DNA of 41,324 nucleotides, taken from the IMG/VR virus record IMGVR_UViG_3300020021_000025, positions 1-41,324 of that record; one strand, given 5' to 3'. Position numbers and translations under genes: made by a program. The stretch comes from a virus. The notes beneath the pieces are model-generated. The model was not told the origin of the DNA and searched no databases. It saw nothing but the letters and a program-made list of their open reading frames with translations. Every line of letters starts with the position of its first letter. The first letter of the stretch is position 1. Positions 23,184 through 37,024 of this stretch are shown piece by piece.

Positions 23184-24218
23184 CTACTTGGCTTTGGCCC
23201 TCCGTTTCGCGGTATGCCTTTTTCCGGCCACTTTCTCCGCAGCCTGTGCCAGGGAATCGGGCGCGAGATGGGCATAGCGGAGCACCATCGAATAGCTTTT
23301 CCACCCTCCCAGCTGCATGAGCTCGTGCGGGGTGACGCCGCCCTGGATGGCCCAGGAGGCGAATGTGTGGCGCAGGCTGTGCCAATTGATGGAGGTGGGC
23401 AGCAGCGCCCGGGCCCGCGCCTTCATGAACGCCGCGGTGTTGCAGTCATCGATCGGCGCGCCGTCGTACTGAAACACCCAGTCGCCTTCGGGGTTCAGCG
23501 TCTTGAGCTTGCGCAGCACTTTGACCACATCGCGCGAGAGCGGTATCCCCAACGCGTGCTTGCCCTTCATGGCAGCGCCCGGCACCCAGGCTCGGCGCTT
23601 GCGCAGGTCGATCCGCTCCCACGTGAGGCCGAGCATCGAGCGCATGCGAAGGCCGGTCAGGACCGCGAACTCGGCCGCGAGCGCCAGGTGCGGCGGCAGT
23701 TCAGCCTTCAGTTTTTTGAACTGGTCCCGCGTCAGCCAGTCCGGCTCACCCGGCCGGCGGTTGTGCATGGGGACCTTGGGCGGCGCGTCGATGTAGCGCC
23801 ATTCAAAGGCGCACTTGCGCAGGATCGCCCGCAAGCAGGCCATGTATCGGTCGACGGTCGCCGGCGCTTTGCCTTCGTCGGCCAGCATGCCACGCAGCTC
23901 CTGAATCACGTCGATGTCGATCTCGGACAGGGGCGCGTCTTTGAGCTCCGGCTGACTACAGAACCATTCGAGGAGCAGCTCGTCCTTGTGCTTGGTTTTC
24001 TTCGTGGTCTCGATCAGCCATCGCGCCGCGGCTTCGCTGAATGGAGTTGCACCACGGTCGCCGAGTTTGTGGAGACGCCAGAGTCGATCGTGCTCTGATT
24101 TCTCGAATTCCTCTGCCGCTGCGCGATCTGTCGTGCCCGTCGAGCGCCTAACCTTTGTGCCAGCGACTTGTACGCGGATCCACCAGTGGGGGCTTTTGGG
24201 CTGGCGGTAGAGCGGCAT
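23184..24218 (-). CDS. int: Tyrosine-type site-specific integrase
   Basis: A 344-residue recombinase that inserts and excises the phage at att sites. The N-terminal part carries an arm-binding-like start (RQPKSPHWWIRVQVAGTKVRRS), a helical core-binding domain spans about 60-150, and the catalytic domain follows. Catalytic residues visible are Arg191 (TGLR), Lys218 or Lys220, His280 and Arg283 (HSLRH), Trp306 in place of a second His, and Tyr315 (VLRYAHL). It is the last gene of the leftward operon, next to attP. Its first 205 bases overlap the xis frame. Confidence 0.95.
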   Translation of the reverse strand: MPLYRQPKSPHWWIRVQVAGTKVRRSTGTTDRAAAEEFEKSEHDRLWRLHKLGDRGATPFSEAAARWLIETTKKTKHKDELLLEWFCSQPELKDAPLSEIDIDVIQELRGMLADEGKAPATVDRYMACLRAILRKCAFEWRYIDAPPKVPMHNRRPGEPDWLTRDQFKKLKAELPPHLALAAEFAVLTGLRMRSMLGLTWERIDLRKRRAWVPGAAMKGKHALGIPLSRDVVKVLRKLKTLNPEGDWVFQYDGAPIDDCNTAAFMKARARALLPTSINWHSLRHTFASWAIQGGVTPHELMQLGGWKSYSMVLRYAHLAPDSLAQAAEKVAGKRHTAKRRAKAK

Positions 24219-33743: not shown

Positions 33744-34078
33744 GACTGCACCCCTGCATTCGCGAGCACGGCAGCCACCGCCTCATCGTCCTCGCGCAAG
33801 GCTTGTGGCGTTTTCCACAAGTGCGGACGCATCCACATCCATTGGCGGACGCCGGGATCGACCAGTCGCAGCAGAATATTAATATCGACCGAACGCATGT
33901 AAGCCTCGCGTTCCTCTGGCGTCAGCTTCAATCGTGCCCCACTGATGGGAAGCATCCAGCAATTGACGCGGCAATACACCATCGCCAATTCCCGCTCGAG
34001 ATCATTGCGCGGCTCGATTTCAGCCTGCTTGTTGTCCATCAACAGCCGGTCCGCCTGGTCGATGAGAGAGCGAGCCAT
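33740..34078 (-). CDS. Helical hypothetical early protein
   Basis: A 112-residue protein starting at ATG 34078 (MARSLIDQADRLLMDNKQAEI), with AAGGAG nine bases upstream. The middle includes RVNCWMLPISGARLKLTPEE and a Met/Trp-rich stretch (RQWMWMRPHLWK). It overlaps the next gene and the tiny upstream gene, so the chain is translationally coupled. Function unknown. Confidence 0.55.
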   Translation of the reverse strand: MARSLIDQADRLLMDNKQAEIEPRNDLERELAMVYCRVNCWMLPISGARLKLTPEEREAYMRSVDINILLRLVDPGVRQWMWMRPHLWKTPQALREDDEAVAAVLANAGVQS

Positions 34079-34164
34079 CAGTGCAAACTCCTTGCGACGA
34101 TCCAGCCCCACATGAAGAGGTCGACGTTCAAGAGCACGAACTCTGGGAGGCCGAAGCGCTTCAT
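34078..34164 (-). CDS. Tiny membrane-like peptide
   Basis: A 28-residue frame (MKRFGLPEFVLLNVDLFMWG) with a hydrophobic middle; its stop TGA shares bases with the ATG of the next gene (TGATG). The AAGGAG that serves the next gene lies inside it. Short length makes this uncertain. Confidence 0.35.
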   Translation of the reverse strand: MKRFGLPEFVLLNVDLFMWGWIVARSLH

Positions 34165-34167
34165 CAC

Positions 34168-34305
34168 TTAGCCCACCTTGACGATCGACACCGAGCAGTC
34201 GCGGCAGGCCGAGAGCCGAAAGCCCTTCAGCGTCTCTTTCGTGACCGTCGCGCGCAGCACGTGGCCATCGGGATAGGTGATGGTGACGGTGTAATGCGCG
34301 TTCAC
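34168..34305 (-). CDS. Small hypothetical protein
   Basis: A 45-residue protein from GTG 34305, overlapping the stop of the first operon gene (GTGA). The text VNAHYTVTITYPDGHVLRATV suggests a small strand-rich fold. Two Cys (CRDC) sit near the end. Function unknown. Confidence 0.5.
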   Translation of the reverse strand: MNAHYTVTITYPDGHVLRATVTKETLKGFRLSACRDCSVSIVKVG

Positions 34306-34445
34306 AGCGTCACGCTTAAGAGGTAGGCCGAGAACGCCAGCACGATGCCGAAGCAGACGGCGAATTCCACCTGGAAGGGGACGGGGTAGGTCGAGATCAC
34401 CTGGTCGCGGTTGGCGCGGCGGGCGTTGTTGAGGTCGAGGTTCAT
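34302..34445 (-). CDS. First gene of the leftward early operon, membrane protein
   Basis: A 47-residue protein starting MNLDLNNARRANRDQVI with a C-terminal membrane segment (FAVCFGIVLAFSAYLLSVTL). GGAG precedes the ATG at 34445. Its start lies 30 bases from the -10 of the leftward promoter. Being the first gene it would be the earliest expressed after induction. Confidence 0.55.
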   Translation of the reverse strand: MNLDLNNARRANRDQVISTYPVPFQVEFAVCFGIVLAFSAYLLSVTL

Positions 34446-34474
34446 GGGGCACACACTCCGTTGCAAGTGAGGCA

Positions 34475-34504
34475 ATATTACGGTACGCCGTAAAAGATTG
34501 TCAA
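34475..34504 (-). promoter_or_regulatory. Leftward early promoter (PL-like)
   Basis: On the minus strand, TTGACA (34499-34504) is followed after 18 bases by TAATAT (34475-34480), close to the sigma-70 consensus. It would read the whole leftward operon. Operator repeats overlap both hexamers, so repressor bound there should block RNA polymerase. Confidence 0.8.
34478..34493. promoter_or_regulatory. Left operator site 1
   Basis: TTACGGTACGCCGTAA is a perfect inverted repeat of TTACGG about a four-base centre. It sits in the spacer of the leftward promoter and overlaps its -10 by three bases. Confidence 0.75.
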
Positions 34505-34517
34505 CGGAATTCCGTAG
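34502..34517. promoter_or_regulatory. Left operator site 2
   Basis: CAACGGAATTCCGTAG contains the perfect palindrome ACGGAATTCCGT. It overlaps the -35 of the leftward promoter by three bases, and its centre is 24 bases from site 1. Confidence 0.7.
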
Positions 34518-34580
34518 TGTGGGAGGTGGGTCACATTTCCGGCCGAATAATCCGTGAATGAGAGCCCAGGCACGGCCCTG

Positions 34581-34596
34581 CTACGGAACGCCGGAT
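34581..34596. promoter_or_regulatory. Possible outlying operator near a rightward promoter
   Basis: CTACGGAACGCCGGAT keeps most of the operator pattern. Directly after it, TATATT (34596-34601) could be the -10 for the 34648 gene, so the repressor may control that gene. The right half-site is imperfect. Confidence 0.35.
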
Positions 34597-34647
34597 ATAT
34601 TAAGTCGCAGTCGAGATGGGAGTTTTCAACCGTTCAAGGAGTGATCG

Positions 34648-34884
34648 ATGGCCCACGTAATCTGTTCGAATTGCGGATCGACCGCGAAACCCAAGACCAA
34701 GACAAAAGGCAGCATCCTGATTGAGCTGATCCTTTGGTGCATGATGCTGTTGCCCGGGCTGATCTACAGCATTTGGCGACTGACCACGCGAGCGGAAGTG
34801 TGCCGCGTATGTGAGGCTCCAGGATTGGTGCCGCTCAATTCACCAGTTGGGCGAGAGCTCACGAACAAGTACGCCAAGGCATAG
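34648..34884 (+). CDS. Zinc-pair membrane protein in the immunity region
   Basis: A 78-residue protein. N-terminal CSNCGS and later CRVCEA would make a split zinc site around a membrane segment (ILIELILWCMMLLPGLIYSIW, residues 24-44). AAGGAG precedes the ATG. It is transcribed towards the repressor gene from the opposite strand. Position inside the immunity region points to expression in lysogens, possibly in exclusion of other phages. This is inference. Confidence 0.65.
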   Translation: MAHVICSNCGSTAKPKTKTKGSILIELILWCMMLLPGLIYSIWRLTTRAEVCRVCEAPGLVPLNSPVGRELTNKYAKA

Positions 34885-34896
34885 GGACCAAATCCG

Positions 34897-35151
34897 ATGC
34901 GTATCCTCTTCGTTACGATCGCCGCGATCGCCATATCCGGTTGCGCCATCACCAGTAGCTATAGCCGTGGGCCGAATGGCGGCTCGGTCCACATGATCGA
35001 CGGCATGAGCGCGGGAGTCGCGTATCGCAAGGCCGATCAGATGTGCCCCACTGGATATACGATCTTGTCGACCCAAGGGCAGACCTCCGTGATGGATTAC
35101 ATCATGACGGTCGAGTGCAAGCTGCCTGGCGATCAGGTTGCGAGTCGATAG
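34897..35151 (+). CDS. Small lipoprotein in the immunity region
   Basis: An 84-residue protein with a lipoprotein signal (MRILFVTIAAIAISGCAITS; lipobox ISG-C16). The mature part has two further Cys (MCPTGYTILS, VECKLPG). It starts 12 bases after the preceding membrane-protein gene, so the two are probably cotranscribed. Lipoproteins made by prophages often modify the envelope or block superinfection. The function here is not shown. Confidence 0.7.
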   Translation: MRILFVTIAAIAISGCAITSSYSRGPNGGSVHMIDGMSAGVAYRKADQMCPTGYTILSTQGQTSVMDYIMTVECKLPGDQVASR

Positions 35152-35199
35152 CCGATTACTTGCGCTTCCAGAAGGCGTCGTCCGCCAGCCAGATAACGT

Positions 35200-35583
35200 T
35201 CACCCCGCCTTTTTTTTAATTTGAGGGGTACGCGATCTTGATCGCTCGAGCTGCTCGACGAATCCCAGCACCGCGGCCTCGATCGCGCCGCGGTCTTTCG
35301 TCGATAGATTGTCGAACCTGGAGCGCTCGAATTTGAAGGGCCAGCCGGATTGGATAGGTTGATCTGGTGCTGTCATGTCTTCCGGTACTCCCTTACCGTA
35401 TTCCAAATAGTGAACATTGACCCGAAGCACCGCGGCAATGACATGCAGCTTCTTGGTGCTCTTCGAGTCTCCGCGCTCCAAATCATAAATCGTTGACGGC
35501 CGTAATCCAACCCGTTCGGCAAGGTGCTCGACGGTCATTTTGCGCCTCTCGCGCCATTCTTTTACCCGATCCCCGATCGTCAC
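35200..35583 (-). CDS. Lysogenic repressor, HTH-type without peptidase domain
   Basis: A 127-residue protein from GTG 35583 (VTIGDRVKEWRERRKMTVEHLAERVG). Residues 1-65 form an HTH_3 domain with recognition-helix text LRPSTIYDLERG. The rest is a short helical part ending with NLSTKDRGAIEAAVLGFVEQL, suited to dimerisation. No S24 self-cleavage domain is present, so induction by the RecA route is not expected from the protein itself. It lies divergent to a Cro-like gene, with three operators between. The open frame extends upstream, but that part overlaps the operators. Confidence 0.8.
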   Translation of the reverse strand: MTIGDRVKEWRERRKMTVEHLAERVGLRPSTIYDLERGDSKSTKKLHVIAAVLRVNVHYLEYGKGVPEDMTAPDQPIQSGWPFKFERSRFDNLSTKDRGAIEAAVLGFVEQLERSRSRTPQIKKKAG

Positions 35584-35587
35584 GCGG

Positions 35588-35593
35588 ATATTA
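35588..35593 (-). promoter_or_regulatory. Repressor maintenance promoter -10 (leaderless mRNA)
   Basis: TAATAT on the minus strand lies four bases upstream of the repressor GTG (35583-35581), so transcription would begin at or within the start codon and give a leaderless mRNA, as for lambda cI from PRM. No good -35 is seen at the usual spacing, suggesting activation. Confidence 0.55.
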
Positions 35594-35609
35594 AAACGGA
35601 TTTCCGTAA
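35594..35609. promoter_or_regulatory. Right operator site 3
   Basis: AAACGGATTTCCGTAA matches the operator pattern with one mismatched arm. It lies next to the repressor promoter -10 and overlaps site 2 by three bases. Confidence 0.6.
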
Positions 35610-35622
35610 CGGAATGCCGTTG
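35607..35622. promoter_or_regulatory. Right operator site 2
   Basis: TAACGGAATGCCGTTG matches the operator pattern. It overlaps the -35 of the rightward promoter by three bases, and its centre is 24 bases from site 1. Confidence 0.65.
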
Positions 35623-35649
35623 CGTGTTTATTACGGAATGTCGTAAAGT
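35620..35649 (+). promoter_or_regulatory. Rightward early promoter (PR-like)
   Basis: TTGCGT (35620-35625), an 18-base spacer and TAAAGT (35644-35649). It is weaker than the leftward promoter by sequence. Operators overlap both hexamers with the same offsets as at the left. Confidence 0.55.
35631..35646. promoter_or_regulatory. Right operator site 1
   Basis: TTACGGAATGTCGTAA is the operator pattern with one changed base. It lies in the rightward promoter spacer and overlaps its -10 by three bases, the same offset as site 1 at the left. Confidence 0.7.
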
Positions 35650-35656
35650 GCGGGCC

Positions 35657-35869
35657 ATGGACACATGGGCATCGCGGATTCGGGACCTGCAATCGAAAGG
35701 ATGGACCTTGAGCGACATCGCCGAAGAGGTCGGACTCTCGACCTCATCGATCGGCGATATCGCGACCGAGCGGACCGAATCTCCCCGCGGGGATGCTGCG
35801 CTCAAGCTATATGAGTTGCACAAGTCAGCGCTTCCCAAGCGTCCGAAATCGAAACAAGTCGCCGTCTAG
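35657..35869 (+). CDS. Cro-like small regulatory protein
   Basis: A 70-residue protein (MDTWASRIRDLQSKGWTLSD) with a helix-turn-helix: LSDIAEEVGLSTSSIGDIATER. It is divergent from the repressor and is the first gene after the rightward promoter, the place of Cro in lambda-like phages. It should compete with the repressor for the operators and favour lytic growth. No strong ribosome binding site is visible before the ATG. Confidence 0.75.
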   Translation: MDTWASRIRDLQSKGWTLSDIAEEVGLSTSSIGDIATERTESPRGDAALKLYELHKSALPKRPKSKQVAV

Positions 35870-35890
35870 CCGCGCCGGCGCTGCTTCGCA

Positions 35891-36130
35891 ATGGCATCTG
35901 ATCTGAAGGATTTCCGCGGCGAAGTCTCTCGTGAAACCGATATCTGGCTCGAGGCCGAGGAACGCGTCTATGGACGCACCCGCCAGGATATCGTCCGGGA
36001 GTTGTTGCACGCCCATGCCTTGAAGAAGCTTCATGAGGCCAGTGTGATTACGACGCTTGCCGCCGCCCACGGCATCAAGCCGGAAGATGCCGGAATCCAC
36101 CGGCAAGCCGTCAGCGGGCGTCGCAAATGA
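35891..36130 (+). CDS. Small regulatory protein, possibly ribbon-helix-helix
   Basis: A 79-residue protein. FRGEVSRETDIWLEAEERVYGRTRQDIVRELLHAHALKK has the strand-helix-helix order of Arc/MetJ-type DNA-binding proteins, followed by a helical tail (VITTLAAAHGIKPEDAG). Being second in the rightward operon, the slot of lambda cII, it may be a switch regulator. Domain assignment is tentative. Confidence 0.55.
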   Translation: MASDLKDFRGEVSRETDIWLEAEERVYGRTRQDIVRELLHAHALKKLHEASVITTLAAAHGIKPEDAGIHRQAVSGRRK

Positions 36131-36167
36131 CCTCACGCCCGCCACATCACGACAAAGCGGGGCGCCA

Positions 36168-36437
36168 GTGATCGTGTTGAAGCCGCTATCCGGCCTCGAC
36201 GGGCTGCAGGCTCAATCGACCGTCGACGCCGACTTAATTGCTTTGCACCGGAAAATATGCAGGGCATTCAGTCCGCCCTCGCCCGCCGAGCTCGAGGACA
36301 CGGTCCGGCGCGAAGCCTTGAGGCGCTATCTCGAGGGTGGCGAGGAGCAGGCGCTCGATCTCTTGGCGGTGGCGCGGGCGATTGCGGAGCCGACGGGGCG
36401 TATGTCCAGGACCGGACATAGCGGAGAATCCAGATGA
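36168..36437 (+). CDS. Helical hypothetical protein
   Basis: An 89-residue protein (VIVLKPLSGLDGLQAQSTVDADLI) starting at GTG 36168, with GCGGGG before it. The middle (AELEDTVRREALRRYLEGGEEQALDLLAVARAI) is a charged helix bundle. A longer frame opens at 36057 but its extension is out-of-family text. It overlaps the HNH gene by four bases. Function unknown. Confidence 0.5.
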   Translation: MIVLKPLSGLDGLQAQSTVDADLIALHRKICRAFSPPSPAELEDTVRREALRRYLEGGEEQALDLLAVARAIAEPTGRMSRTGHSGESR

Positions 36438-37024
36438 CATTCAATTACCGCTCAAAAAAGTGGCGTCGCCTTTCCCGTGAGATGCAGCAGCGCGCCGAGT
36501 GGATCTGCGAAATTGCCAGTTGTCGGCGCACGCTGTTGGAGCTAAAAGCGCTCGGTCAGCAGCTCGTTACGCATCATCGGGTGGATGCGAATCGCTTTCC
36601 GGAGCGCGCATTCGATCCGTGGCTTTTGCTTGTGTGCTGCGAAGAGTGTCACGAGCGCATTCACGGCAGGGTGTTTCGCGCGAAGACGCCAGCGATCACT
36701 CAACAATTAGATTTTTGGCCGGCAACTCTTCAGCTCGACTCCGATATGCGTTTATTCGAGGAAAGGGATCAGCGGCGGCAACAGGCCACCTATCTCGCCG
36801 AGACGCAACTACTTGGAGACGCATACAGGCGATCGCGCACGTACGACAGGATCCGCGTAATCCGGGAGGCAAACGAACTTGCCGAGCAGCAGCGGCAGAA
36901 ATGGAGAGAAGTGGGGTTGCTAGAAGATGGTTACTCAGCATCAGGGGTTATAGCAACAGGTGACGAAGCAGATGGAATCACAACGACCAAAACCACCGGT
37001 CCCAACGGGCGTCGATCTTCATGA
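36434..37024 (+). CDS. HNH-type nuclease-like protein
   Basis: A 196-residue protein. CEIASC, then LVTHHRVDANRFPERAFDPWLLLVCCEECHERIHG, is a zinc-finger HNH fold: His-His-Arg, Asn and the CEECH-x3-H end. HNH nucleases in phages cut DNA in packaging or replication, or act as homing genes. The remaining helical part (QRRQQATYLAETQLLGDAYRR) may bind DNA. It overlaps its neighbours, with the next gene starting 65 bases before its stop in another frame. Confidence 0.75.
   Translation: MTFNYRSKKWRRLSREMQQRAEWICEIASCRRTLLELKALGQQLVTHHRVDANRFPERAFDPWLLLVCCEECHERIHGRVFRAKTPAITQQLDFWPATLQLDSDMRLFEERDQRRQQATYLAETQLLGDAYRRSRTYDRIRVIREANELAEQQRQKWREVGLLEDGYSASGVIATGDEADGITTTKTTGPNGRRSS

Follow-up and report, generated by a model that had tools for sequence, protein, structure and literature searches.

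Does the DNA between the divergent repressor and Cro-like genes of this phage act as an immunity switch, and if so, does it work in the manner of lambda? The lambda switch is the textbook case, and which of its features are essential is debated: PRM activation, negative control through OR3, looping and a cleavable repressor. The window, by which we mean the whole 41,324-nucleotide stretch analysed, is an IMG/VR record of a whole 41.3-kb phage. The sequence of its first 120 bases overlaps that of its last 120, which makes a circular map and a complete record probable. Terminase, portal, head, tape-measure and tail genes lie on the plus strand, and the phage is temperate, encoding an integrase. 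The repressor and Cro-like genes flank a multi-operator region. The leftward operon, on the PL side, includes genes for an exonuclease VIII-like protein and a RecA-like ATPase, and the rightward one carries HNH and replication genes. Two small plus-strand genes lie between OL and the repressor, one (34648-34884) encoding a membrane protein whose start resembles a zinc ribbon, the other (34897-35151) a lipoprotein-like product; placed like lambda rex, they are possible lysogenic-conversion or exclusion genes. A near-identity DNA search with the first 25 kb of the window against named phages gave zero matches, as did a tblastn search of Cro against 50,697 named phages.

A preliminary description of this region had reported five palindromes of the type TTACGG-N4-CCGTAA starting at 34478, 34502, 35594, 35607 and 35631, and 16-mers are present at all five starts (Table 1). 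The complete motif is exact only at 34478; the other four sites have one to three mismatches, mostly in the outer two bases. The common core of the operators is ACGG-N4-CCGT, with the exception of OR1 (35631), which has TCGT in one half, and this one-base deviation is kept across the window's clade. The geometry of the early promoters was found as described, with site 1 sharing exactly three bases with the -10 and site 2 three bases with the -35 at both PL and PR, and with centres exactly 24 bp apart on the left and on the right. As had been claimed, the operator sequence is unlike that of lambda, and it also differs from the D3 and phiKO2 sites with which we compared it. PL was the sole sigma70-like promoter detected in 33900-36500. 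The -35/-10 spacer is 18 bp in PL and 18 bp in PR, the PR -35 of the window phage is poor (3/6), and a recognisable -35 was not found for PRM.

Two features were absent from that description. OR3 and OR2 overlap by three bases, with centres 13 bp apart. Together they also form a single inverted repeat at 35595-35621, with 13-nt arms and its centre at 35608. The second is an OL3-like sixth site, which is kept in loci L011 and L006 and has a perfect core in L012 and L013; it may control the rightward gene at 34648, in the lambda rex position, or assist looping. A plus-strand TATATT lies directly after this site, upstream of the 34648 gene. We rejected a rightward promoter here, since an acceptable -35 to accompany this -10-like sequence was not found.

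Table 1. Coordinates of operators, promoter elements and genes in the window
Feature	Position	Strand	Remarks
Tyrosine integrase	23184..24218	-	PF00589
First small ORF of leftward operon, 47 aa	34302..34445	-	Without family match
PL -10, TAATAT	34475..34480	-	From promoter search
OL1, TTACGGTACGCCGTAA	34478..34493	.	Arms fully complementary; kept in L011, L012, L013 and L006
PL -35, TTGACA	34499..34504	-	From promoter search; GTCAACGG kept in most of the 48 loci that have paired OL sites
OL2, CAACGGAATTCCGTAG	34502..34517	.	Motif match
OL3-like sixth site, core ACGGAACGCCGG (34583-34594)	34581..34596	.	Core match 7/8; 79 bp from OL2
Prophage repressor, 127 aa, HTH_3	35200..35583	-	GTG start at predicted PRM +1
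PRM -10, TTTAAT	35590..35595	-	Abuts OR3 core; AAT 91-100% conserved in 33 loci
OR3, AAACGGATTTCCGTAA	35594..35609	.	Inside PRM spacer
OR2, TAACGGAATGCCGTTG	35607..35622	.	Shares 3 bp with OR3 and 3 bp with PR -35; covers PRM -35 region
PR -35, TTGCGT	35620..35625	+	Assigned by position; TTGAC in most relatives
OR1, TTACGGAATGTCGTAA	35631..35646	.	One half-site TTACGA
PR -10, TAAAGT	35644..35649	+	Assigned by position; TAnnnT in relatives
Cro-like HTH regulator, 70 aa	35657..35869	+	ATG 7 nt past PR -10; leaderless mRNA predicted

Genome-wide, the motif shows hardly any enrichment (15 observed, 9.4 expected). Its clustering and its 24-bp pairing, by comparison with simulated sequences, exceed chance: four exact cores fall within 1.17 kb, where 300 first-order Markov simulations gave at most 2, and no 24-bp pair other than these two occurs in 41 kb (simulated mean 0.03, maximum 2). 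The palindromes could also be read as RNA hairpins or terminators, or as chance products of GC-rich DNA. A terminator-like stem is predicted at 35605-35624; however, as the sites precede or span the predicted starts, transcripts from PR or PRM would not include them, and among related loci it is their spacing that is conserved and not the intervening bases. With the simulations and the control scan given below also standing against chance, we regard this reading as highly improbable.

We then looked for the array in other phages, a comparison that the preliminary description had proposed and that strongly supports operator function. Searches with the repressor and Cro proteins recovered five close relatives. 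The OR array is present in every one of them, and so is the OL array wherever the flank is available. When viral contigs were scanned for pairs of cores with a 13-bp spacing, 61 loci were returned, and 49 of them have a third core at 23-24 bp, a position outside the scan query. The equivalent scan with a control palindrome of matched composition found 22 loci, none of which has a third site at that distance (0/22), refuting a chance origin of the arrays. A profile search by the Cro protein alone found 34 loci, and the 13/23-24 array stands directly upstream in 27 (24 loci with a core match of at least 7/8, together with L234 and with L246 and L248, whose half-sites covary).

After near-identical regions were removed, 38 loci remained, in which the array runs OR3-13 bp-OR2-24 bp-OR1. 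The OR2-OR1 distance is 24 bp in 33 of them and 23 bp in 5, and for the overlap of OR2 and OR3 at 13 bp in these 38 aligned loci the search itself is mostly responsible. In 48 of 55 loci we found an OL pair with a spacing of 23-25 bp, 0.4-3.4 kb from OR and usually with GTCAACGG, that is, a TTGAC -35 on the minus strand; several of the remaining loci have little flanking DNA. In a logo of 33 aligned loci, the PR -10 (TAnnnT) overlaps OR1 and the -35 (TTGAC) overlaps OR2. The cro start is mostly 12 nt past the OR1 core in these loci, and the repressor start codon mostly lies 12 nt past OR3, a position that our choice of repressor starts favoured. Because the cI and cro start codons coincide with the predicted +1, or lie 1-2 bases from it, in most loci, the mRNAs of both genes are probably leaderless.

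Named hosts of the array in the genome collection were Xanthomonas, Stenotrophomonas maltophilia, Luteimonas, another member of the Lysobacteraceae and Thiomonas. The phages that carry it are mostly unclassified or uncultivated, and their repressors differ greatly. Operator sequences should predict immunity groups for prophages of Stenotrophomonas, Xanthomonas and Luteimonas; these did not come up in the searches of named phages. Matches in Nocardiopsis, Atlantibacter and Arthrobacter genomes were dismissed as chance, because they lack either the genes or the other sites of the array, and a Microbispora MAG (L198) with OR1 and a plausible repressor was excluded from the counts. We also set aside abundant ACGG/CCGT pairs 23 bp apart in small contigs, which resemble coding repeats; L075, L077, L078 and many small contigs have such 23-bp ACGG-N4-CCGT pairs with an apparent coding motif, GLPYD..ATR, and look like an unrelated family.

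In three phages, both half-sites are altered together in most or all sites. L246 and L248 have ACGA-N4-TCGT at OL and OR, with OR3 matching 7/8, and L244 has ATGG-N4-CCAT in OR2, OR1 and OL1, and in OL2 with one mismatch. A DNA-binding protein that acts as a dimer would be expected to impose such paired changes on sites far from each other. A tandem scan with ACGA-N4-TCGT gave 5 loci, all unrelated. When recognition helices were set against the operator variants, a simple rule relating residues to bases was not found.

Next, we investigated the proteins that might read these sites. By sequence, the best match of the window repressor's HTH is the 434 repressor, and its HTH_3 domain is closest to 434, P22 and SinR. 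A structure search with the HTH likewise matched P22 c2 (TM 0.90 normalised to target), 434 Cro and SinR. The likeness to P22 c2 and the 434 repressor is one of HTH fold; their recognition-helix residues and operator bases differ from those of the window. AlphaFold, given a 15-sequence alignment, predicted a confident HTH and C-terminal helix (mean pLDDT 78, pTM 0.49), the C-terminal part being a short helical tail with helices at 87-91 and 95-117. A peptidase (S24) domain was not found in the window repressor, which has an HTH only. As the full-length structure is nearest to SinR (E 4e-4), the model suggests that this repressor may be inactivated by a protein partner instead of by self-cleavage.

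The description of the window repressor as short therefore stands in that it has no peptidase domain, but a short repressor is not tied to the layout. The 38 distinct repressors beside the operators comprise 22 long (at least 195 aa), 14 short and 2 truncated proteins, and with most of them long, the short repressor would be one variant within a wider family of shared layout. The S24 domain was confirmed by Pfam in the single long repressor scanned, and the serine motif is visible in most of the others; that of the long repressor of L230 looks degenerate. To judge from these sequences, cleavable and non-cleavable repressors share one operator type.

These proteins bear on a second reading, in which the operators belong chiefly to Cro, their conserved reader, or the two proteins differ in how they read them, and binding by the diverse repressors is limited to some sites, for example OR1 and OL1. 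The Cro-like proteins are well conserved beside the operators, and the repressors diverge and vary in length, as this reading would have it; the corresponding proteins of PY54 and phiKO2 also differ in specificity, Cro binding OR3 only in both phages (PMC4997575, PMC4488713), so that one should not presume that the two proteins use every site equally. However, control of PL and PR in a lysogen requires the prophage repressor, and many of the repressors keep a similar recognition helix, for example RPSTIYDLE or APTTLSDLE. We consider this reading doubtful as a general account. In some phages, Cro could nonetheless be the main reader of the operators, because the repressors of L234 and L065 have quite different recognition helices beside the operators and no residue-to-base rule emerged.

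We next compared the array with known systems. As in lambda (NC_001416), the repressor and Cro genes of the window diverge from a region that contains three OR sites, OL sites stand at PL, and both OR1-OR2 and OL1-OL2 are 24 bp apart. The right side departs from this plan: OR2 and OR3 are 23 bp apart in lambda but 13 bp apart and overlapping in the window, and lambda OL3 lies 20 bp from OL2, whereas the OL3-like site of the window is far away and degenerate. Measured from the repressor start, the centres of OR3, OR2 and OR1 lie at -18.5, -31.5 and -55.5 in the window, against -19, -42 and -66 in lambda and -19.5, -43.5 and -67.5 in Pseudomonas phage D3. The lambda-like layout of the preliminary description thus holds for the operators of PL and PR and fails on the right, where a site near -42 for PRM activation is missing. 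The S24 autocleavage domain is another difference, absent from the window repressor and present in some relatives with the same operators. Lambda cI is leaderless; in the window, cro is predicted to be leaderless too.

We weighed on this basis whether the locus might be a full lambda-type switch with another operator word, in which repressor bound cooperatively at OR1 and OR2 activates PRM and OR3 shuts it off. The 24-bp spacings at OR1-OR2 and OL1-OL2 are exactly those of lambda, OR3 is close to its lambda position, and PRM, without a recognisable -35, may need help. In contrast, OR2 is centred atop the PRM -35 instead of at -42, and the overlap of OR2 with OR3 recurs in the 27 of 34 loci that were found independently of the operator. 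We judge this alternative unlikely.

The nearest parallel in number and kind of sites is that of phiKO2 and N15, in which there are five 16-bp operators, three at OR and two at OL, and the repressor lacks self-cleavage residues (PMC4997575); the window likewise has three OR and two OL operators of 16 bp and an apparently non-cleavable repressor. The outer TTA...TAA of the N15, phiKO2 and PY54 16-mers is also that of the window's OL1, and leaderless cI and cro mRNAs were shown experimentally in PY54 (PMC4488713). In phiKO2, however, the operator core is TAGC/GCTA (TTATAGCTGGCTATAA) and not CGG/CCG, OR3 and OR2 are 26 bp apart (counted by eye on the sequence) rather than 13, and OL controls repA of a linear plasmid, whereas PL of the window leads into a recombination operon and a tyrosine integrase is present. 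The annotation of D3 (AF165214) places three putative operators between cI and cro, and repressors of the D3 group are the nearest named-phage relatives of the long-repressor consensus (37% identity); its operators, such as ATGAGTATTCCCAT, are spaced 24/24 bp with a lambda-like PRM geometry. As neither lambda nor N15 has overlapping OR2 and OR3, the switch appears to be a variant of the lambda/N15 kind and a member of neither, with PRM activation probably missing. A search of open-licence papers for the operator words or for comparable Xanthomonadales systems found nothing relevant, and as far as that literature shows, the five-site arrangement seems not to have been described previously.

Taken together, we put at about 0.82 the probability that the locus is an immunity (lysis/lysogeny) switch built on operators for the repressor and the Cro-like protein, with graded repression probable and lambda-type PRM activation improbable. 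The 127-aa repressor and the Cro-like protein, each as a dimer, would bind the ACGG-N4-CCGT palindromes. As OL1 and OR1 fall within the spacers of PL and PR, and OL2 and OR2 on the -35s, their occupancy would shut both early promoters; with OR3 in the PRM spacer and OR2 over the PRM -35, occupancy of either should turn PRM down. OR1 and the OL sites could thus keep the early promoters off with PRM still open, and OR2 and OR3 would be occupied at a later stage, in autoregulation or, with Cro as the occupant, in commitment to lytic growth. We favor such graded repression, in which the repressor would take OR1 and OL first and OR2 and OR3 later and Cro the reverse order, over lambda-type PRM activation because OR2 and OR3 overlap and there is no site at -42. 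Activation of PRM from OR1 is possible.

More tentatively, and at slightly less than an even chance, these loci could represent an undescribed class of switch, in which OL1-24-OL2 and OR1-24-OR2-13-OR3 are fixed over at least 38 loci, the recognition helix and the C-terminal domain (cleavable or not) vary, and either/or repression at OR2/OR3 replaces PRM activation. Since the family keeps 24-bp arrays at PL and PR with another PRM geometry and both cleavable and non-cleavable repressors, the question of which lambda features are essential becomes testable by comparison.

Relatives of the Cro-like protein also occur in other settings and sizes. In L240, L241, L243, L249 and L250, the sites are arranged differently, with a perfect site at -93 or -117, a one-mismatch site at -49 and, in three of these loci, another at -19, and with the 13-bp overlap missing. 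In L022, L023, L025, L030, L037, L039 and similar loci, the Cro-like proteins are 150-157 aa long, twice the usual length, and have an added conserved C-terminal part, DSRMSKRALRARLG...
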